DNA from: Citromicrobium sp. UBA3494
GTDB lineage: Bacteria; Pseudomonadota; Alphaproteobacteria; Sphingomonadales; Sphingomonadaceae
Direction of reading: 5' to 3'
Length of the DNA: 64,000 nucleotides
NCBI GenBank assembly: GCA_002377695.1
Contig: DFQH01000005.1
Location: 1-64,000, forward strand
In this document: piece by piece, positions 2,702-63,631 of the stretch
Layout of the letters: every line of letters begins with the position of its first letter
How positions within the stretch are numbered: the stretch's first letter is position 1
The notes under the pieces: generated by a model
Told to the model about the DNA's origin: nothing
Seen by the model: the letters and a program-made list of their open reading frames with translations, nothing else
Database searches by the model: none
Translations under genes and position numbers: made by a program

Positions 2702-3732
2702 GGTTCCTTCCTTTCATATGCCAGCGCTTCGGGCGCGATCCGGGGTTCGCCGCCACTCATCCGCGAGAGGCGTTCTTCCTCGGGCGTCTCGGCGAGTGCG
2801 GCGTTGAGCTGGGCCCCGATAACGAGCCCCAGCCCGACGAGCCAGAAAAACAGCAGGGTGATGATGATCCCGGCCAGCGATCCGTAGGTGAGGTTGTAGG
2901 CGAAAAAGCTGCGCAGGACCGGCGGCAGCGCGACCGTCACGCCGACCCACCACAGCGTGGTCGCCACCGCGCCCGGCCACTTGGGGTAGCGCTTCTGGCG
3001 GTAGGGGCTGGGCGTGAGGATATAGAACAGGGCGTAGATCGATCCGAACAGCCCGAAACCAGGGACGAAGCGCGCCAGCGCCAGCTGCCCAAGCGCATCG
3101 CTCAGCAACGGGAAATAGGCCTCGATCACCTGCTGCGCGGCACCGATCATGACCTGCGCGATCAGGGAGAGCATCAGCAGAACCACCGCGCCGATTATCA
3201 TCCCGGTGGAGGCGAGGCGGTACAGCCAGAAGGCCTGCGTGGCTTCGGTGCCGTAGGCGCGCCGCAGCAGATCGCGGATCGTCTCGATCAGGCTGCCCAC
3301 GGTCCACAGGCCCACCGCACCGCCGACCCACAGCAGCCAGCCCTGGCGCGAATCGATCACGCTGCGGGCGACCGGTTCGATCACGTCGGCGACCACCGGC
3401 GGCATGGCCAGCAGGATCGCATTGATGCTGGCGGCGCGCTCCCCTTCTTCGCCGACGGCGGCGAAGATCGCGGCGCCGGTGATGAAGAAGGGAAAGATCG
3501 CCAGCATCGACATGTAGGCAAGGTTGCCCGCGTACAGAAAGCCGACGTTGAAGGTGCCGTTCACAACCCGCCGGACGACCTCGATGGATCGCCAGTGGGG
3601 CTGTTGCGGCACTGCGATGCCGCCACGCAGGGTCACCGCTTCGCGCCGTCTGTCCTCTGGCGTAAGAGACTGGACCTGCCGCGCGTCAGGGTCCGGCAGC
3701 GCCTGCTTCAGGCGGGGAATGAGCCGCCGCAT
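2698..3732 (-). CDS. YihY/BrkB family inner-membrane protein
   Basis: A 344-residue polytopic membrane protein of the YihY/virulence factor BrkB family (formerly misnamed ribonuclease BN). About six hydrophobic segments run from residue 60 to residue 290, preceded by a charged cytoplasmic N-terminus. The transported substrate or role of this family is not established. It starts 7 bases after the dnaJ-like gene and overlaps fabI by 4 bases, so the three genes look like one transcription unit. The acidic and basic C-terminal tail after the last membrane segment is probably cytoplasmic. Confidence 0.88.
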   Translation of the reverse strand: MRRLIPRLKQALPDPDARQVQSLTPEDRRREAVTLRGGIAVPQQPHWRSIEVVRRVVNGTFNVGFLYAGNLAYMSMLAIFPFFITGAAIFAAVGEEGERAASINAILLAMPPVVADVIEPVARSVIDSRQGWLLWVGGAVGLWTVGSLIETIRDLLRRAYGTEATQAFWLYRLASTGMIIGAVVLLMLSLIAQVMIGAAQQVIEAYFPLLSDALGQLALARFVPGFGLFGSIYALFYILTPSPYRQKRYPKWPGAVATTLWWVGVTVALPPVLRSFFAYNLTYGSLAGIIITLLFFWLVGLGLVIGAQLNAALAETPEEERLSRMSGGEPRIAPEALAYERKEP

Positions 3733-3739
3733 ACCGGGT

Positions 3740-4693
3740 TCAGGCGCCGATATCGGCGCGCGGGTCGCTCTCGTCCGTCCAGCCCTCGAGAGCAGCCTTC
3801 AGGGGGCCGACATCGTCCGGCAGCACGATCTGCACGGTGACCAGCTGATCCCCGCGCCCGCCGCTTTTCCTGGAAAAACCCTTTCCGGACAGGCGCATGG
3901 TTGTGCCGCCCGATGTGCCGGGCTTGATGGTGAGCATCACTGCCCCGTCGACCGTGGGCACCCGGACCTTGCCGCCACCCACCGCTTCGGAAAGCGTGAT
4001 CGGCAGGTCCAGACGGACATTGTCGCCATCGCGCTCGAAATGGGGGTGGCGTTCGATTTCGACCGTCACCAGCGCGTCGCCCGCTCCGGCAGGGCCGGGC
4101 TCGCCTTTGCCGCGCAGCCGCATCTGCGTGCCGCTCTCGACACCGGCGGGCAGCTTGAGGTCGATCGTCTTGCCGTCCTGCAGGGTGATGCGCTGCGGCG
4201 CGAGTCGCGCTGCGTCCACGAAAGGCACGCGCAGGCGATAGGCAGTGTCGGCGCCCTTGCGCGGGGGCGGAGCGCTGCGCCCGAAGCCGCCGCGTCCGCC
4301 GGTCGGCCCTGCACGGCTTCCGCCGAACAGACCTTCGAACAGGTCGCCCAGATCGACTTCCTCGGCACCGCCGAAACCGCGGAAATCCTGCGAGGAATAG
4401 CTACCACCGGCGCCCGGCCGGCCGCCGAAGCCACCTGCCCCCGCGCCTGCCCCCGCGAAGGGGTTGGTCGGATTGCCTTCGAGATCGATCTCGCCCCGGT
4501 CGTAGCGTGCGCGCTGTTCCTTGTCGGACAGCAGATCGTAGGCCTTGGTAATGTCGGAAAAGCGCTCGGCCGCGTTCGGATTGTCCTTGTTGCGGTCCGG
4601 ATGCAGTTCCTTGGCGAGCTTGCGATAGGCGCTCTTGACCTCCTGCTCGGACGCCGAGCGACCAATTCCGAGAATGTCGTAAGGGTCCGCCAT
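3740..4693 (-). CDS. DnaJ-class (CbpA-like) J-domain co-chaperone
   Basis: A 317-residue Hsp40 of the type lacking the cysteine-rich zinc domain. The J-domain occupies residues 1-68 with HPD at 31-33, the motif that stimulates the ATPase of DnaK. A Gly/Phe-rich linker follows (about 75-150), then the two beta-sandwich substrate-binding domains to the C-terminus. It resembles CbpA or a type II DnaJ rather than canonical DnaJ. First gene of the operon with yihY and fabI; the roughly 160 bases upstream form a divergent promoter region shared with the DUF354 gene. Confidence 0.9.
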   Translation of the reverse strand: MADPYDILGIGRSASEQEVKSAYRKLAKELHPDRNKDNPNAAERFSDITKAYDLLSDKEQRARYDRGEIDLEGNPTNPFAGAGAGAGGFGGRPGAGGSYSSQDFRGFGGAEEVDLGDLFEGLFGGSRAGPTGGRGGFGRSAPPPRKGADTAYRLRVPFVDAARLAPQRITLQDGKTIDLKLPAGVESGTQMRLRGKGEPGPAGAGDALVTVEIERHPHFERDGDNVRLDLPITLSEAVGGGKVRVPTVDGAVMLTIKPGTSGGTTMRLSGKGFSRKSGGRGDQLVTVQIVLPDDVGPLKAALEGWTDESDPRADIGA

Positions 4694-18400: not shown

Positions 18401-18921
18401 CGCTGGTCAACATGACGAGCCTCGCGCTGGCGCCGCTGGGCGGGATTTTCCTGGTCTGGCTGGTCGGCCAGCCGCAATCCATGCCTGTCTATATCGGCGT
18501 GCTGCTGCTGCTGGGCATCGTCTCCAAGAACTCGATCCTGCTGATCGACTTCGCGATCGAGGCGATGGCCGAAGGGCGCGACAAGATGGATGCGATCCTT
18601 GATGCAGGCCACAAGCGCGCGCAGCCCATCGTGATGACCACCTTCGCCATGACGGCGGGCATGATTCCGACCGCACTTTCCGGTATTCTTGGCTCGGGCG
18701 ATGGCGCCTGGCGCGCGCCGATGGGCACGATGGTGATCGGCGGGCTGGTCGTTTCGACATTGCTGACCCTGCTGATCGTGCCCGCAGGCTTCAGCCTGGC
18801 GGACGGGTTCGAGAAGCGCGTCGGACCGTGGCTGCGCACGCGGCTGCTCAGCTATCGGCCGGGCGACGACACGACGCATGGCGCGCGTGGCGACGAGGCC
18901 GACCCCGCGCCTGCCGAGTGA
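15442..18921 (+). CDS. RND efflux permease with extra membrane insertion
   Basis: A proton-driven drug or solute pump of the HAE-1/AcrB type, 1159 residues. The proton-relay aspartates are in [13 protein letters not shown] (fourth helix) and the matching lysine in [13 protein letters not shown] (tenth helix). The repeat periplasmic porter domains are recognisable. Between the sixth and seventh standard helices, at about residues 493-640, there is a long insertion containing two extra strongly hydrophobic stretches, making the protein about 100 residues longer than AcrB. The GTGA junction at its end couples it to the DUF445 gene. Substrate unknown. Confidence 0.93.
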
Positions 18922-20189
18922 CCCTGCCACCCGCCCAGACCTTCGCCAGCATCCAGACCACGCCCGATCGCGCGCGCGCCATGCGCCGGGCCGCGACGGC
19001 CATGCTGGTGCTGATGGCTAGCGTCTTTGCCATCAGCCATACCCTCATCGATGCGCACCCGGCGTGGGGTTACGTCAACGCCTTCGCCGAGGCGGCGATG
19101 GTCGGCGGGCTGGCGGACTGGTTCGCGGTGACGGCTCTCTTCCGCCATCCGCTGGGGCTGCCGATCCCGCACACTGCGATCATTCCGAAGAAGAAAGACC
19201 GGATCGCCGACACCATGGCGCAGTTTCTGCGCGACAATTTCCTCACCCCCTCGGTGGTCGCGCGCCGGATGCGACGGATGAATGTGGCGGGTTCCGCAGG
19301 GGAATTCCTTGCCCAGCGGGAAGGGGGGGAGCGTTCGCGCCTGATGGGCGGCGGGGCGGAACTGATTGCCGAAGTGCTCGAATCGCTCGATCCGGAAAGA
19401 CTTGGCCTGCGGGTGCGCGCGGGGCTCGCAAGCCAGCTCGCCAAGGTGGAGCTGGCCCCGCTGCTGGGCGGATTGCTCGAGAACCTGATCGCCGATGGTC
19501 GCCACCGCCCCCTGCTCGACGGGCTTATCCGCTGGGCCGGGCTGACGCTGGAGGACAACGAGGAGGCCGTGCGCGAGATCATCCGCAGCCGCGCCAATTC
19601 GGTGCTGCGCTGGACGGGACTCGATTCGCGCATCTCCAGCTCGGTGCTGGACGGCGTGTATCGCCTCCTGGCCGAGGTGCTGGTCGATCCCGATCACCCG
19701 ATGCGCGGCAAGATCGACACCGCGCTGGTCAAGCTGGCCGTTCAGCTCAAGACCGCCCCGGATATGAGGGCCAAGGTCGAGGCGGTGAAGATGGACCTGC
19801 TGGAAAATCCCGCGCTCGCCGACTGGTGGATGGGCGTGTGGGAGCGCATTCGCCGCTCGCTGATCACCCGCGCACGCGACCCCGACAGCGAGCTGGGCGA
19901 GGAGCTGCGCGGTGCCCTGCGCGAAGTGGGCAAGGCACTGCAGGACGATCCGCGCCTGCAACGCCAGATCAACCGCTTCGCACGACGCACTGCGGTGGGG
20001 CTGACATCCCGTTACGGCGCGCAGATCGTGGCGCTGGTGTCCGAAACCGTGAAGCGCTGGGATGCGGGCACGGTGACCGACCGGATCGAGAGCGCGGTGG
20101 GCCGCGATCTGCAATTCATCCGTATCAACGGCACGCTGGTTGGTGGGCTTGTAGGCATTACGCTGCACGCGATCACGCAGATGATCTGA
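18918..20189 (+). CDS. DUF445 family membrane protein
   Basis: A 423-residue protein of the DUF445 family. Two N-terminal membrane segments (about 20-40, and 45-70 containing GGLADWFAVTALFRHPLG) precede a long helical soluble region, with a last hydrophobic stretch at the C-terminus (GTLVGGLVGITLHAITQMI). The GGLADWFAVTALFR motif is the family hallmark; the function is not known. The start is a GTG overlapping the RND permease stop, which removes about 30 N-terminal residues present in a longer antisense-derived frame. Confidence 0.87.
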   Translation: MTLPPAQTFASIQTTPDRARAMRRAATAMLVLMASVFAISHTLIDAHPAWGYVNAFAEAAMVGGLADWFAVTALFRHPLGLPIPHTAIIPKKKDRIADTMAQFLRDNFLTPSVVARRMRRMNVAGSAGEFLAQREGGERSRLMGGGAELIAEVLESLDPERLGLRVRAGLASQLAKVELAPLLGGLLENLIADGRHRPLLDGLIRWAGLTLEDNEEAVREIIRSRANSVLRWTGLDSRISSSVLDGVYRLLAEVLVDPDHPMRGKIDTALVKLAVQLKTAPDMRAKVEAVKMDLLENPALADWWMGVWERIRRSLITRARDPDSELGEELRGALREVGKALQDDPRLQRQINRFARRTAVGLTSRYGAQIVALVSETVKRWDAGTVTDRIESAVGRDLQFIRINGTLVGGLVGITLHAITQMI

Positions 20190-20217
20190 GGGTTTCGAAA
20201 AGCGAGGGAACTGCGCA

Positions 20218-21495
20218 ATGGCAGCAGGCAATCTGTACGCAATCAATGCCGCAGGGGAGCTGGTCGAGATGAAACCCTCCGCGCCGCAGGATGAAGACCA
20301 GATGCAGCAGTTGATCGCACGTCATCCGGCTGTGATTGGCGATGACGATGGCGAACTGCTGCTGGTGCAACGAGAGCAGTCCATAGCGGATGGGGAATCG
20401 ACGGGGCGGTGGTCTCTCGATCACCTTTACGTGACGACCGCGGGAGTTCCGGTCCTCGTAGAGGTCAAGCGGGCCGTCGAGACGAGGCTGCGGCGCGAAG
20501 TGGTCGGTCAGATGCTGGACTATGCCGCAAATGGGACGGCCTACTGGGACGCTGGAACCATTGCGGGCAGTTTTTACGAGACGGCTTCGGAACATTTGCT
20601 CGATCCGGATGAGGTGCTGTCGGCCTTCCTCGGAGACGACCGGGACCCCTCGGAGTTCTGGGATCAAGTCGATGCCAACTTCGCGGCCGGGCGGGTGAAG
20701 CTTGTCTTCGTGGCGGACCGTATTCCAAGCGAACTGGCGCGCATCGTCGAGTTTCTCGACGAGCAGATGCGCGCCGACGTTCGGGCGGTTGAACTGCGCT
20801 GGTTCGAAGGTGCTGACGGCACGAGGGCCCTCAATCCGCGCATTATCGGTGTATCCGAGAGGGCGCGGCTTGCGAAGCGGTCGGGCCAGTCCAAAACGCC
20901 CCTTACGATCTCAGAATGGATCGAAAGAACATCATTGAGCGACGAGGCGCGGCTCGCCGCACCCAAATTCATCGATCTCATCGAGAATGCAGGTGGGACC
21001 GTCACCGTCACTAAGGCGCAGGCAGCGCTGGTTGCGATCGTAAGCCGGGCGGAACCGGTCTATCCGCTATCTTTCAGAAAGGATCGATCCGGATCGATAC
21101 AGGTCCACTTCGAGCGGCTGGCCCGGACGAAGGCCTACGCGGACGAATCAGCGCGGCAGACCCTGTACGCCGATCTGACCGCAATCGTCGGCCCGCTCTT
21201 CTCCGAGAATATCGATGGTCACCCGGGCTTTCCCGCCGAAGTACTCAACGACGGCGAAGCTCTTGCGGCCCTTTCATCCTTGATCGACGCGCTTTTCAGG
21301 AGGCTCGGGAGCACCTCTGGTCGAAGCGCTCCCGCCTATCTCGCATCAGAGCTTCTCGGTCAGCTCGGGCACCGCCTTGAACAGGTCCGCGACCAGGCCG
21401 ATGTCCGCGACCTGGAAGATCGCGTCCTCCTCTTTGTTGATCGCGACGACGACCTTGGAATCCTTCATCGCCGCAAGGTGCTGGATCGGTGCTGA
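20218..21495 (+). CDS. PD-(D/E)XK nuclease-like protein with antisense-etfA tail
   Basis: A 425-residue hypothetical protein. The N-terminal third carries an Asp-x(n)-Glu-x-Lys core: [19 protein letters not shown] (about residues 67-85) followed by [12 protein letters not shown]. That arrangement fits the PD-(D/E)XK nuclease fold used by restriction and repair enzymes. The middle and C-terminal parts are unrecognised. Residues 378-425 are translated from DNA that is the antisense of the etfA 3' end, so the natural C-terminus has probably been replaced. No methylase or other restriction gene lies nearby. G+C is lower than in the flanking DUF445 gene. Confidence 0.72.
21346..21488 (-). pseudogene. 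Fragment of a second etfA copy (3' end only)
   Basis: About 139 bases match the last 142 bases of the intact etfA at 22483-22624 with 6 substitutions and one 3-base gap by my count. On the minus strand the fragment still reads as 46 EtfA codons ending in TEKL and a stop at 21346. The changes are three synonymous, three conservative (Gly-Ala, Ile-Val, Asp-Glu) and one in-frame loss of a proline. It has no start or upstream part. It overlaps, antisense, the end of the nuclease-like gene. Confidence 0.88.
21350..21488. repeat. Direct repeat copy A of the etfA 3' end
   Basis: Left copy of a direct repeat of about 140 bases; the right copy is the 3' end of intact etfA at 22483-22624. Identity is about 96 percent by hand alignment. 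The two copies bracket about 1 kb holding one secreted-protein gene. Confidence 0.88.
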
Positions 21496-21513
21496 GACCT
21501 GCGCGAAGACCGT

Positions 21514-22410
21514 TCACCAATCATATCGAATGTTAAACATGTAAAAGTCATCGATAGGCGCGCCGTCTGCGCCAATGGCGGGTTCGAAAGACGCTTCTTC
21601 GCGAATGATGCCGCAAACCAGTTTCTGTACGTCATAGCTTTTCGCCACGGAGCGCTTCATAACTTTGCAATCGCCGATCGTACCGTCGGATTTCACAATG
21701 ATGCGTGCCGACACGAGGGCCCCTTTGCCGGGCGCAGCGCCTTCCGTGAGGTTGTTCTGTATCTCCTTGGCGACCTTGGCTGGATTGGTGACGACGACTC
21801 CCGATTGCGCGCTGCTTATCGCCTCAGCATCGAGCCCCCAGCTCTGCACCAGATCGGCTGTGCAAACATCCATCGCGCCCAAAGCGCGATCGAGTGACGC
21901 CAACTGGAAAACGACGTCATCGCGTTTCCTCTGCGATAGCGTCAGGGTTTCTATTGTCTTCGCTTGATCTCTATCGCTGGGCGCAGCTGGCGGCTGCTCT
22001 TGCCTAGAGGGGATGCGGTAGCTCTTTACCCATTTTGGGGTGCTAGTGATCAAACCGATTGCCAATACAGCAGGGCCGTAGCTTCCGAAGATCACCTCGC
22101 CAAAACCGGCGGTCCCCTCCTCGCCATTCGGCCCAAATTTGTACTCAATATCCCGCCCTTCGCGGAATTGAGCGACCGAGGGACCGGCGGCGAGCCATAC
22201 AAAGAATCCCGATGGCTCATATTGCTCGAAGTAGAGAACGTGCCGATTGTCGCCCTCGCCGTAATCTTGGACTATCCGGCATTTTTCCTCATCCGCATTC
22301 AATTGCCATGGACCGGAGGGGGCGAGAACGACCTCTTGCGCAGAAAGCGGCGCGTTGAGGTTGATGGCGAAATAAAAAGCCGCACCAAGAGCAATTGGAG
22401 CAGAGCGCAT
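21514..22410 (-). CDS. Secreted TonB C-terminal-like protein
   Basis: A 298-residue exported protein. The signal peptide is residues 1-24 (cleavage after LSAQ is likely). The N-terminal part (about 30-120) is unrecognised; the last 90 residues (ALVSARIIVKSDGTIGDCKV ... ASFEPAIGADGAPIDDFY) resemble the TonB C-terminal/energy-transducer-like domain common in sphingomonad secreted proteins. It has no membrane anchor and no proline-rich spacer, so it is unlikely to be a working TonB. The base composition is clearly lower in G+C than etfA. It lies between the two copies of the etfA 3' end. Confidence 0.72.
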   Translation of the reverse strand: MRSAPIALGAAFYFAINLNAPLSAQEVVLAPSGPWQLNADEEKCRIVQDYGEGDNRHVLYFEQYEPSGFFVWLAAGPSVAQFREGRDIEYKFGPNGEEGTAGFGEVIFGSYGPAVLAIGLITSTPKWVKSYRIPSRQEQPPAAPSDRDQAKTIETLTLSQRKRDDVVFQLASLDRALGAMDVCTADLVQSWGLDAEAISSAQSGVVVTNPAKVAKEIQNNLTEGAAPGKGALVSARIIVKSDGTIGDCKVMKRSVAKSYDVQKLVCGIIREEASFEPAIGADGAPIDDFYMFNIRYDW

Positions 22411-22416
22411 AAGGAA

Positions 22417-22450
22417 ATCCCCCTGACGCGATCTTATCGCGCAGGGGGAT
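22417..22450 (-). terminator. Hairpin terminator after etfA, abutting next start
   Basis: A 15-base-pair stem (ATCCCCCTG and CGCGAT arms with one bulged A and a 3-base loop), followed on the minus strand by TTTCCTT. It sits 28 bases after the etfA stop. The 3' arm contains AGGGGG, the only Shine-Dalgarno-like stretch near the ATG at 22410, so the hairpin may also mask that ribosome site. Confidence 0.75.
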
Positions 22451-22478
22451 CTCTAGCAATTCGTTTCGGGAGAAGGAT

Positions 22479-23408
22479 CTAAAGCTTCTCGGTCAGCTCG
22501 GGCACCGCCTTGAACAGGTCCGCGACCAGGCCGATGTCCGCGACCTGGAAGATCGGGGCGTCCTCGTCCTTGTTGATCGCGACGATGACCTTGGAATCCT
22601 TCATCCCGGCAAGATGCTGGATCGCGCCCGAGATGCCGATCGCGAAATAGGCCTCGGGTGCCACGATCTTGCCGGTCTGGCCGACCTGGTAGTCGTTGGG
22701 CACGTAGCCTGCGTCCACCGCCGCGCGGCTCGCGCCGATGGCGGCACCCAGCTTGTCGGCCAGGGGCGTGATGTATTCCTCGAAGGTTTCCGCGTCCTTC
22801 AGCGCGCGGCCGCCCGATACGACGACGCTAGCGCTGGTCAGTTCGGGGCGGTCGCTCTTGGCGAGTTCGCGGCTCACGAATTGGGAGGTGTCGGCGGTCG
22901 CCGCTGCATCGACCGATTCCACCGTGCCGCTGCCACCTTCGGGCTCGGCCTTGTCGAAGGCCGTACCGCGGACGGTCAGCACCAGCTTCTCGTCGGTGCT
23001 TTCGACCGTCGCGATGGCGTTGCCGGCGTAGATCGGGCGGGTGAAGGTCTTGTCGCCTTCGACCGACAGGATGTCCGAAACCTGCATCACGTCGAGCAGC
23101 GCGGCCACGCGCGGAGCGATGTTCTTGCCGGTGGTGGTGGCAGGCGCCACGAACGCATCGTGGCCGTCCATCAGCTTGACCACCAGCGGCGCGACGTTTT
23201 CGGCCAGCATGTCCTTGTAGGCCGCGTCGTCGGCACAATAGACGGTGCCGACACCGGCGATCTTGGCGGCGGCATCGGCCACGCCCTTGCAGTCCGCACC
23301 CGCGACCAGCAGGTCGACATCGCCGAGCTTCGACGCGGCCGTTACGGTGGCGAGAGTGGCATCGGCCACCTCGCTGTTGTCATGTTCTACCAGAACCAGA
23401 GTCTTCAT
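22479..23408 (-). CDS. etfA: Electron transfer flavoprotein subunit alpha
   Basis: FAD-binding subunit that passes electrons from acyl-CoA and other dehydrogenases to the quinone pool through ETF-quinone oxidoreductase. The 309-residue product has a normal length, beginning [11 protein letters not shown]; the C-terminal FAD domain contains the family segment [20 protein letters not shown] (about residues 240-259). GAGG lies 6-9 bases before the ATG; a longer frame upstream is not supported. Directly downstream of etfB (39-base gap). Its last 142 bases are repeated at 21350-21488, suggesting the 3' end was involved in a recombination event. Confidence 0.96.
22483..22624. repeat. Direct repeat copy B (3' end of intact etfA)
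   Basis: Right-hand copy of the etfA 3' repeat, contained in the intact gene and encoding its final 46-47 residues. It has 3 bases (one proline codon) that copy A lacks. Confidence 0.88.
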
Positions 23409-23447
23409 GTTCTTACCTCGAAATCTATAACCGGGCTCAGGCGCCAA

Positions 23448-24194
23448 TCAGGCGATGCCGAGCGCCTTGATCTTCGCGACCAGCGCATCGACGTCCTCGA
23501 CCTTTTCGCCTGCCTGGCGAACCGGCGGTTCGGAGACGTTGGTGGTCTTGAGGCGCGGAGCGACATCGACGCCGAACTCGTCCGGCGTCTTCGTGTCGAG
23601 CGGTTTCTTCTTGGCCTTCATGATGTTGGGCAGCGAAGCATAGCGCGGCTCGTTCAGACGCAGGTCCGTGGTGACGATGGCGGGCAGCGTCAGCTTGACC
23701 GTTTCCAGACCGCCGTCGATTTCGCGCTTCACGGTCACGCTATCGCCTTCCAGCGTGATCGTGTTGGCGAAGGTGCCCTGCGGGCGGTCGAGCAGCGCGG
23801 CAAGCATCTGCCCGGTTTGGTTGGAATCGTCCGAGATGGACTGCTTGCCCAGCAGGACGAGGCCCGGCTGTTCGTCTTCCACGATGGCCTTCAGGATCTT
23901 GGCAACCGCCAGCGGTTCCAGATCTTCGTCCGTTTCGACCAGGATCGCGCGGTCTGCACCCATGGCGAGCGCAGTACGCAGCGTTTCCTGCGCCTTTGCC
24001 GGGCCGATGGAAACGGCGATGATCTCTTCGGCGTTGCCCGCTTCCTTGATCCGGATCGCTTCCTCGACCGCAATCTCGTCGAACGGGTTCATGCTCATCT
24101 TGACGTTGGCGAGGTCGACGCCGGAGCCGTCCGCCTTGACGCGCGGCTTCACGTTGTAGTCGATCACCCGCTTGACGGGCACGAGTATCTTCAT
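23448..24194 (-). CDS. etfB: Electron transfer flavoprotein subunit beta
   Basis: AMP-binding partner of EtfA. The 248-residue protein has the expected length, with the family start [19 protein letters not shown] and the signature-like stretch [20 protein letters not shown] at about residues 146-165. The C-terminal recognition region (around residues 185-205, with [12 protein letters not shown]) is also conserved. AAGGAC precedes the ATG. It forms a two-gene operon with etfA. Confidence 0.96.
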
Positions 24195-24437
24195 TGCATG
24201 TCCTTTCGCGTGGCTGCCCGGCGCTGTGCCGTCCGGGCCGCAGAATGTCCCGACTTTCTAATGGCTGGGGGCGGTGTTGCGTTCCGGAAACAGCGCCGTC
24301 AAGGGCACACGCGCGGGCGCGCCATGGCGTAGCGTAAGGTGGGCCCGGCTGCGCTTGCGGTACGCAGGCGAAACACCCCGCGAATCATGCTATTGATGGG
24401 TCAGGAACCTCCACACGCCCGAGGCTTTACCCAACAC

Positions 24438-25061
24438 ATGGCCGACAGTCCGAAATCCGTGACCGATATTCTGGACCGTCTGGTCGATGTCGGGGACAAG
24501 AACGATTCGGTGTCCATCGGGGATATCGTCGGCACGTTCGGCAGCCGGTCCTATGGTCCGGTGCTGCTGGTGCCGGCCCTGATCGGCGTCTCGCCGGTGG
24601 GCGGGATACCCACGGTGCCGACGATCCTGGCCGCCACGCTGCTGCTGATCGTGATCCAGCTGGTCTTCGGTAAGGAGCATCTCTGGCTCCCCGGCATCCT
24701 CAAGAACCGATCGGTCGAGGGCGAGAAGCTGGCAAACGCGGCAGAGGACATGGAAGGCGTGGGAAAGTGGATGGACAAGATCTTCCACGGCCGACTGGAA
24801 ATGTTCACGGGGCCGACGGCGGCGCGCATTGCCGCTGGCGTTGTGGCGCTGCTGTGCCTTGCGGTGCCCCCGCTGGAGCTGTTGCCCTTCGCGGTCGCCC
24901 TGCCGATGGCGGTGATCGCGGCTTTCGGCATCGCGCTGACCGTGCGCGACGGGCTTTTGATGCTGCTCGCCTTCTTGGGCAGCGGAGCCGCGTTCTACGT
25001 GCTCGTCACGCAGGTTCTGCTGGGTAGCGGCGGTTCGGGCGGCAGCGGCGGAATGTTCTGA
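24438..25061 (+). CDS. ExoD family exopolysaccharide-related membrane protein
   Basis: A 207-residue protein of the ExoD family: a soluble N-terminus, then hydrophobic segments at about 50-80, 125-165 and 170-195. The motif SYGPVLLVPALIGVSPVGGI followed by PTVPT is diagnostic. ExoD was first identified in Rhizobium as affecting exopolysaccharide production and alkali tolerance, but its biochemical role is unknown. It ends in a Gly/Ser-rich tail. The ATG at 24438 is preferred over an upstream in-frame start at 24339 because conservation begins there. Confidence 0.82.
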   Translation: MADSPKSVTDILDRLVDVGDKNDSVSIGDIVGTFGSRSYGPVLLVPALIGVSPVGGIPTVPTILAATLLLIVIQLVFGKEHLWLPGILKNRSVEGEKLANAAEDMEGVGKWMDKIFHGRLEMFTGPTAARIAAGVVALLCLAVPPLELLPFAVALPMAVIAAFGIALTVRDGLLMLLAFLGSGAAFYVLVTQVLLGSGGSGGSGGMF

Positions 25062-62833: not shown

Positions 62834-63631
62834 TCAATGCACGAACCGTGCGACCACATCGCGGTAGCTGCGCGAGACCTTCACCTCGGCGCCCGATCCC
62901 AGCACCAGGAAGCACTCGCCATTGGTGTGCGGCTTCACCTGCCGCACCTGGTCGAGATTGACGATGGTGGAACGGTGCACGCGCTGGAACTTGCGCGGGT
63001 CCAGCCGCCGTTCGAGATCCTTCATCGTCTCGCGCAGGATCAGCGAATTGTCGCCGGTATAGATGCACATGTAATCGCCCGCGGCCTCGATATGCTCGAT
63101 CGAATCGACCTCGACGCGGAAGATCTTGCCCCGGTCCTTCACGTTGAGCAGCTTTTCGAAGCGGTCGGCGCCGTCGCCCGATCCTTCCTGCAGCTCCTCG
63201 GCCGTTTCGGGGGCGACTTCGGCGAGCACGTTCATCAGCTTTTCCGCCTCGTCCGCGCCGCGCTTCTCGTTCATGCGCTGGCGCACACGCTCGATCACGT
63301 CGGCCAGCTTGTCCTCGTCCACCGGCTTCATCAGGTAATGCAGCGCATTGGCCTGGAAGGCGCGGATCGCGTGTTCCTGGTAGGCGGTGACGAAGACGAA
63401 CAGCGGCGGTTCGATATCCATCACGCCCTGGACCACGCCGAACCCGTCGAAACCGGGCATCTGGATGTCGAGGAAGACGAGGTCGGGGCGCAGCGTCTTG
63501 ATCTTGCGGATCGCCTCGCGCCCGTTGGAGCAGGTGTCGATCACCTCCACATCCTCGAACGGTTCCAGCCGCAGCTGCAGGCCCTGGATCGCGAGTTTCT
63601 CGTCGTCCACGATGATCGCTTTGATGGTCAT
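62834..63631 (-). CDS. LytTR family response regulator
   Basis: A 265-residue two-component response regulator. The receiver domain (1-125) has the phospho-acceptor Asp55 in LVFLDIQMPG, VTAY and the lysine in LMKPVDE. A Glu/Ala-rich linker follows, then a LytTR DNA-binding domain (about 160-265: VEVDSIEHIEAAGDYMCI, then HTNGECFLVLGSGAEVKVSR). It starts 3 bases after the kinase gene ends, so it pairs with that sensor. Target genes unknown. Confidence 0.92.
   Translation of the reverse strand: MTIKAIIVDDEKLAIQGLQLRLEPFEDVEVIDTCSNGREAIRKIKTLRPDLVFLDIQMPGFDGFGVVQGVMDIEPPLFVFVTAYQEHAIRAFQANALHYLMKPVDEDKLADVIERVRQRMNEKRGADEAEKLMNVLAEVAPETAEELQEGSGDGADRFEKLLNVKDRGKIFRVEVDSIEHIEAAGDYMCIYTGDNSLILRETMKDLERRLDPRKFQRVHRSTIVNLDQVRQVKPHTNGECFLVLGSGAEVKVSRSYRDVVARFVH

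Follow-up and report, generated by a model that had tools for sequence, protein, structure and literature searches.

Gene content of the locus

The window, i.e. the whole stretch of 64,000 nucleotides that was analysed (contig DFQH01000005.1 of Citromicrobium sp. UBA3494, genome G000), contains a small slot of variable content, bounded by two core genes. One side of the slot is formed by etfA (22479..23408, minus strand), the intact gene for the alpha subunit of the electron transfer flavoprotein (PF01012 and PF00766; start and stop verified), with its partner etfB upstream (23448..24194, minus strand), as is found beside etfA in loci of the family. The conserved far boundary is a DUF445 gene on the plus strand (18828..20189; PF04286, E 2.7e-116). 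Between them lie a nuclease-like gene, nuc (20218..21495, plus strand, 425 codons), a displaced and decaying 3' end of etfA, copy A (21350..21488, minus strand), and a gene which we call sec (21514..22410, minus strand). The intact gene ends in copy B (22479..22624, minus strand; stop codon 22479-22481). The 25 bases that join copy A to the sec stop codon (21489..21513) have no clear match to etfA and represent a non-homologous junction.

Copy A (21350-21488) aligns to copy B (22483-22624) in the same orientation, with 93.7% identity over 142 columns and one 3-base gap (E ~6e-59), so that the repeat reported by the first-pass annotation is confirmed, as is the lower G+C content that it attributed to the gene between the copies (55.9% in sec vs 65.4% in the window; 65.7% in etfA and 61.1% in nuc). 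The homology of copy A to etfA of relatives ends at about 21488. Four substitutions are private to copy A, which also lacks 3 bases, and these changes alter residues of the etfA frame. The region 21300-22650 maps to a single place in the 2.9-Mb genome. An assembly error at the junction on the A side is unlikely, as judged from a separate sequence, the database protein P0004, which differs at only 2 of 425 residues and has the same frame through copy A and the same stop; this independent support covers the A-side junction alone.

The spacer that separates etfA from sec is predicted to form a strong hairpin a short distance upstream of where sec starts (22414..22453, minus strand; the segment 22411-22478 folds with -31.6 kcal/mol). 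The hairpin could serve as a terminator for etfA or mask the ribosome-binding site of sec. A regulatory RNA or a tRNA as the target of an insertion was considered and rejected, as the region 20000-24300 has no Rfam match and the only tRNA of the window is at 63341.

The nuclease-like gene and its extended frame

The nuc gene starts 28 bases past the DUF445 gene and is NucS/DUF91-like by fold and by the names of its relatives. Over residues 13-217 only, it gives a hit to PDC-S11, a family of candidate defence proteins in PADLOC (E 2.3e-12), and may belong to it. Profile searches against Pfam and NCBIfam gave no family match, and there is no PDB sequence relative at E <= 1. The structural model (mean pLDDT 77.6, pTM 0.49) has EndoMS as its top Foldseek hit (probability 0.99, E 4.9e-3), with a low TM score and poor superposition.

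The frame of nuc crosses copy A and reaches a stop codon just beyond the end of the copy. Residues 1-368 correspond to the entire protein of the sister genome G005 (368 aa), while residues 369-425 are a read-through tail (within 21322-21495) of 57 codons, 46 of which start inside copy A, mostly antisense to etfA. The stop codon kept in the sister is absent here, which extends the frame; aligned relatives are ~370-390 residues long and end near residue 370. The read-through is also present in P0004, so the extended frame exists outside this assembly. The account of the locus in the first-pass annotation, accurate with respect to the repeat, had overlooked both nuc and its frame through copy A.

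The occurrence of nuc is sporadic, with matches at E <= 0.001 in 12 of 199 family genomes, 4 of these (G000 included) reaching at least 46% identity over nearly the full length. A search of the phage collection with nuc gave nothing, and its matches in plasmids, in 22 records, are all distant (<60%); sec, searched in the plasmid collection only, has no match there. Carriage by a phage or plasmid was rejected on these results.

The gene between the copies

Judged by eye, the N-terminus of the sec product is signal-like; the protein also has a beta domain similar to IalB and ends in a TonB_C-like domain. Different parts of its model (mean pLDDT 82.5) resemble IalB and the TonB C-terminal domain, with Foldseek probabilities of 1.00 but E-values of 5e-3 to 2e-2. 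For Pfam TonB_C the match of sec itself is weak and under the cut-off (E 0.028), while P0003 is a clear match. The nearest relative of sec is a database protein, P0002 (75% identity), and there is no sequenced donor.

In many genera a relative of sec is the next gene after etfA on the same strand. Of 19 loci fetched for sec, 14 held etfA within short flanks, and a sec-type ORF adjoined etfA in 14 of the 43 named loci fetched for etfA. We take etfB-etfA-sec facing DUF445 as the ancestral layout. The first-pass annotation was right that one gene lies between the copies, but had overlooked that a sec-type gene beside etfA is the common arrangement in the family.

Proteins of the sec family evolve fast, with just 23-46% identity within the genus. 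In a midpoint-rooted tree of 40 rows the family falls into two halves (split support 99/99); sec of G000 groups with P0001 and P0002 in subfamily I, and the 5 other sec proteins of the genus that were included belong to subfamily II. Three loci in the tree have two copies, and both are always of the same half. Most simply, sec of G000 would have been exchanged from outside the line of its own genus, although the two subfamilies could also be old paralogs with different losses.

Variation of the slot within the genus

In the genus set of 10 genomes, which includes G000, etfA is present in 10/10 and is always convergent with DUF445, an arrangement shared with several other genera. The content of the slot varies. 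In G001, G002 and G003 only 80 bases separate the stop codons of etfA and DUF445. One sec-type gene is present in G004, G008 and G009, two are present in G006, and G007 has a broken, shortened one (L055:7668-8096) that may be on its way to the empty state seen in G001-G003. In G005 the slot holds nuc alone, in the order DUF445-nuc-etfA, with 21 bases from the nuc stop codon to the stop codon of a single, intact etfA and no sec. Only G000 combines nuc, copy A and sec. It is also the only member of the genus with a second strong etfA end; 3 others have short matches elsewhere (71-74%).

G005 is the nearest relative (~93-95% identical; 94.4% and 92.9% on the two sides of the locus) and pairs with G000 in a separate tree (support 97/98). 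In that tree G008, which has sec, falls in one clade with the empty-slot genomes G001, G002 and G003, and for this reason we consider that sec was probably lost in G001-G003. The first-pass annotation had proposed that relatives with etfA joined directly to the DUF445 side would indicate an insertion. Such joins do exist (3/10) but, as sec beside etfA is the common layout of the family, they more likely reflect loss of sec than the state before an insertion. The single-copy relative that informs on the insertion is G005.

Two further irregularities were noted. Within etfA, positions 22900-23300 are 93-94% identical to G004, with 84-88% in the adjacent 200-base windows and 76-86% to the other genus members except G005; this is likely to be a recombination tract within the genus and would fit recombination at etfA. 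In addition, 24300-24900, the start region of a gene at 24339-25061, has only 66-84% identity to G005, compared to ~92-95% around it.

Which copy is old

The outer flank of copy A aligns with G005 across its nuc/etfA junction, and that of copy B does not. The best reading is that copy A would be the original end of etfA, which nuc has kept beside it, with sec and copy B as the extra piece, because in G005 nuc lies 21 bases from the only etfA end and sec is absent. Copy B is 98% identical to G006, 97% to G005 and 94% to copy A, but at most 92% outside the genus among the matches listed. It is thus of the genus type, as expected of a related donor, though a resident copy B would look alike.

A rough estimate of age is provided by fourfold sites, at which G000 and G005 differ by 14-18% (28/205 in nuc, 31/183 in etfA, 25/138 in etfB, 44/282 in DUF445). 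About 7-9% would be expected on the G000 branch, and copy A has ~3%. This suggests that copy A was freed from etfA after the split of G000 and G005, with a wide error, as four changes were counted. The repeat itself does not tell which copy is native. Both 3' ends were aligned with those of relatives, as had been proposed, and the informative sites among the 142 columns conflict: column 27 unites A with B, column 129 unites A with G005, and columns 1 and 3 unite B with G005. Overall, copy A is closest to G006 (95.1%), followed by B (94.4%) and G005 (93.7%). By window-by-window identity, the similarity to G005 is no higher in nuc and DUF445 than in etfA. We favour sec rather than nuc as the newcomer, which is not proven.

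Duplicated etfA ends elsewhere in the family

We surveyed 397 family genomes for second etfA ends, with two candidates scored per genome at E <= 1e-35, a setting at which decayed tails are missed. An etfA end matched in 303/397 genomes and a second one in 25/397, these being G000 and 24 others. When the 24 were re-examined at E <= 1e-10, a close same-strand pair was found in just one (G371); the extra matches of the others are on other contigs or at least tens of kb away. Among 122 loci tested (several per genome in places), a second etfA end longer than 100 bases occurs only in the loci of G000 and in L141, which is from G371. In G316 and G363 several matches to the etfA end coincide with the first bases of contigs, which may hide further duplicated ends.

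In G371 (L141:3551-5944; G371:C198) a displaced etfA 3' end of 213 bases (3551-3763) is followed by the other end from 5015, the two being 91% alike over 217 columns. One gene of the YaaC family (PF14175, E 6e-29) lies between the displaced end and intact etfA; a profile search of two ORFs identified YaaC and a PhoD-like phosphatase. The genome is a draft of ~500 contigs and is 87% complete. In three other genomes of its genus, etfA plus ~3.7-4.1 kb beyond contains just one etfA end, and YaaC is absent from this stretch. The case in G371 is an independent analogue of the duplication in G000. As the two duplications have different end points within etfA, a site-specific recombinase is disfavoured.

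A limited literature search revealed no paper that joins etfA, an integration site, a duplication and a genomic island. A more novel reading would make the etfA 3' end a recurrent landing site of sphingomonads for single-gene units that bring their own etfA tail and spread with no integrase of their own; a displaced tail would then have been recruited, in antisense, to encode additional C-terminal sequence of the defence-type nuclease next to it. We consider this very unlikely.

Origin of the duplication

Of the possible explanations, we favour one where a variable gene slot existed in two versions that recombined homologously, the locus probably being the scar. In one starting version etfA would have been followed at once by nuc, as is the case in G005, and in the other by sec, the common layout of the family. 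Donor DNA carrying sec and no less than the final 139 bases of etfA would have undergone one homologous crossover within this etfA stretch, into the chromosome with nuc next to etfA. It may have been a circularised fragment, integrated by a single crossover, or a linear fragment whose other end was joined illegitimately. As a result, etfA would have gained sec together with a complete 3' end (copy B), the old end (copy A) would have stayed on nuc, and 139 bases would be duplicated. Copy A, then free of selection as part of etfA, would have started to decay, and loss of the nuc stop codon would have led to 57 more codons being read, mostly antisense through copy A. We infer that there was a single crossover, what form the donor had, that sec was the newcomer and in which order the events took place. 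The arrangement, read as copy A for the old end, then a foreign gene, copy B for the new end and the etfA body, fits a single crossover or a one-sided event, with the insert bracketed by direct repeats of the etfA end and with G005 as a single-copy relative that does not have the insert. The first-pass annotation had preferred recombination with a related chromosome that added a second 3' end, and this gains support.

An event in the opposite direction, or an older one, is possible but clearly less probable. Here, etfA with sec would be the resident arrangement, so that copy B and sec might be plain retention of a layout common in the family, and a fragment with DUF445, nuc and the etfA 3' end, from a G005-like chromosome, would have been joined beside sec to give copy A; G005 would be of the donor type or, when copy A recombined with copy B, would have lost sec at a later time. 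In favour of this, column 129 unites copy A with G005, but sec of G000 is outside the sec subfamily of its genus and so does not look retained, and nuc and DUF445, being no closer to G005 than etfA, give no sign of a recent import on the nuc side. The few private changes in copy A, suggesting an age below the G000/G005 split, argue weakly in the same sense.

We regard as very unlikely the site-specific entry, at the etfA 3' end, of a mobile cassette of small size or of an integrative element now degraded, with copy B as the replacement end that it carried. The geometry of such an integration is present, with displaced copy A, restored copy B and one low-GC gene between them, and is seen likewise in G371 with a YaaC gene between two etfA 3' ends. 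Yet the insert is a single gene of a family that is normally syntenic beside etfA and without match in the plasmid collection, and the repeat lengths in the only two cases found (139 vs 213 bases) point to no shared crossover point. No PF00589 integrase was detected in the window by a profile search for this one recombinase family, in agreement with the earlier remark that none is visible; the nearest one on the contig is at 94455, ~72 kb past the repeat. The cassette or degraded element suggested by the first-pass annotation is not supported, and we reject site-specific insertion as the best reading because of the differing etfA end points and the lack of PF00589 in the window. Finally, short direct repeats can mislead assemblies, but it is extremely improbable that an assembly artefact or a local tandem duplication created the locus, as P0004 carries the same A-side junction, copy A has its own mutations, and the interior gene has no detectable direct repeat within 20000-24500.

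Implications and comparison with known systems

In the preferred reading, i.e. homologous recombination at etfA, a small slot between two core genes gained a gene by ordinary recombination instead of swapping it for another, and the leftover gene tail became raw material that extended a nuclease frame by 57 codons, mostly of antisense etfA. The locus also calls for caution, as displaced and restored gene ends need not imply an integrase.

Integrative elements can restore the 3' end of their target gene and leave the displaced end behind. The etfA locus resembles them in having a displaced and a restored end, but differs in that no PF00589 integrase is found in the window, no att point is common to the two cases, and the cargo belongs to the usual resident family.

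Other parallels come from homologous recombination, and what the locus shows is most likely the scar that recombination left in a variable slot of small size, by a class of mechanism that is already known. In the E. coli lacZ experiments described in PMC3240628, single crossovers of circularised DNA resulted in duplications of 109-950 bp in 14 sequenced clones. The insert is likewise placed between direct duplications of the end of the homologous gene, with 139 bases here falling within that range; in contrast to those clones, the etfA event is natural, has decayed and is without a known donor. Homology-facilitated illegitimate recombination, as treated in PMC3240628 and in a related model proposed for T6SS immunity arrays of Vibrio cholerae (PMC5361080), is similar in that one end is homologous, one junction is non-homologous and older sequence is left downstream. 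However, events of the kind treated in PMC3240628 are predicted to delete DNA of the recipient, while the etfA locus keeps the recipient end as a duplicate, and the Vibrio model concerns effector and immunity genes, which the etfA locus does not. Integrase-free hotspots, according to the account in PMC5635113, vary by recombination in flanking core genes. The etfA slot is alike in having variable genes between two conserved ones, no integrase seen and a sign of flanking recombination; it is set apart by its very small size (0-2 genes in the genus) and by the visible scar of an imperfect exchange, to which a displaced etfA tail inside the reading frame of the neighbouring nuclease adds a further feature of a tidy example.
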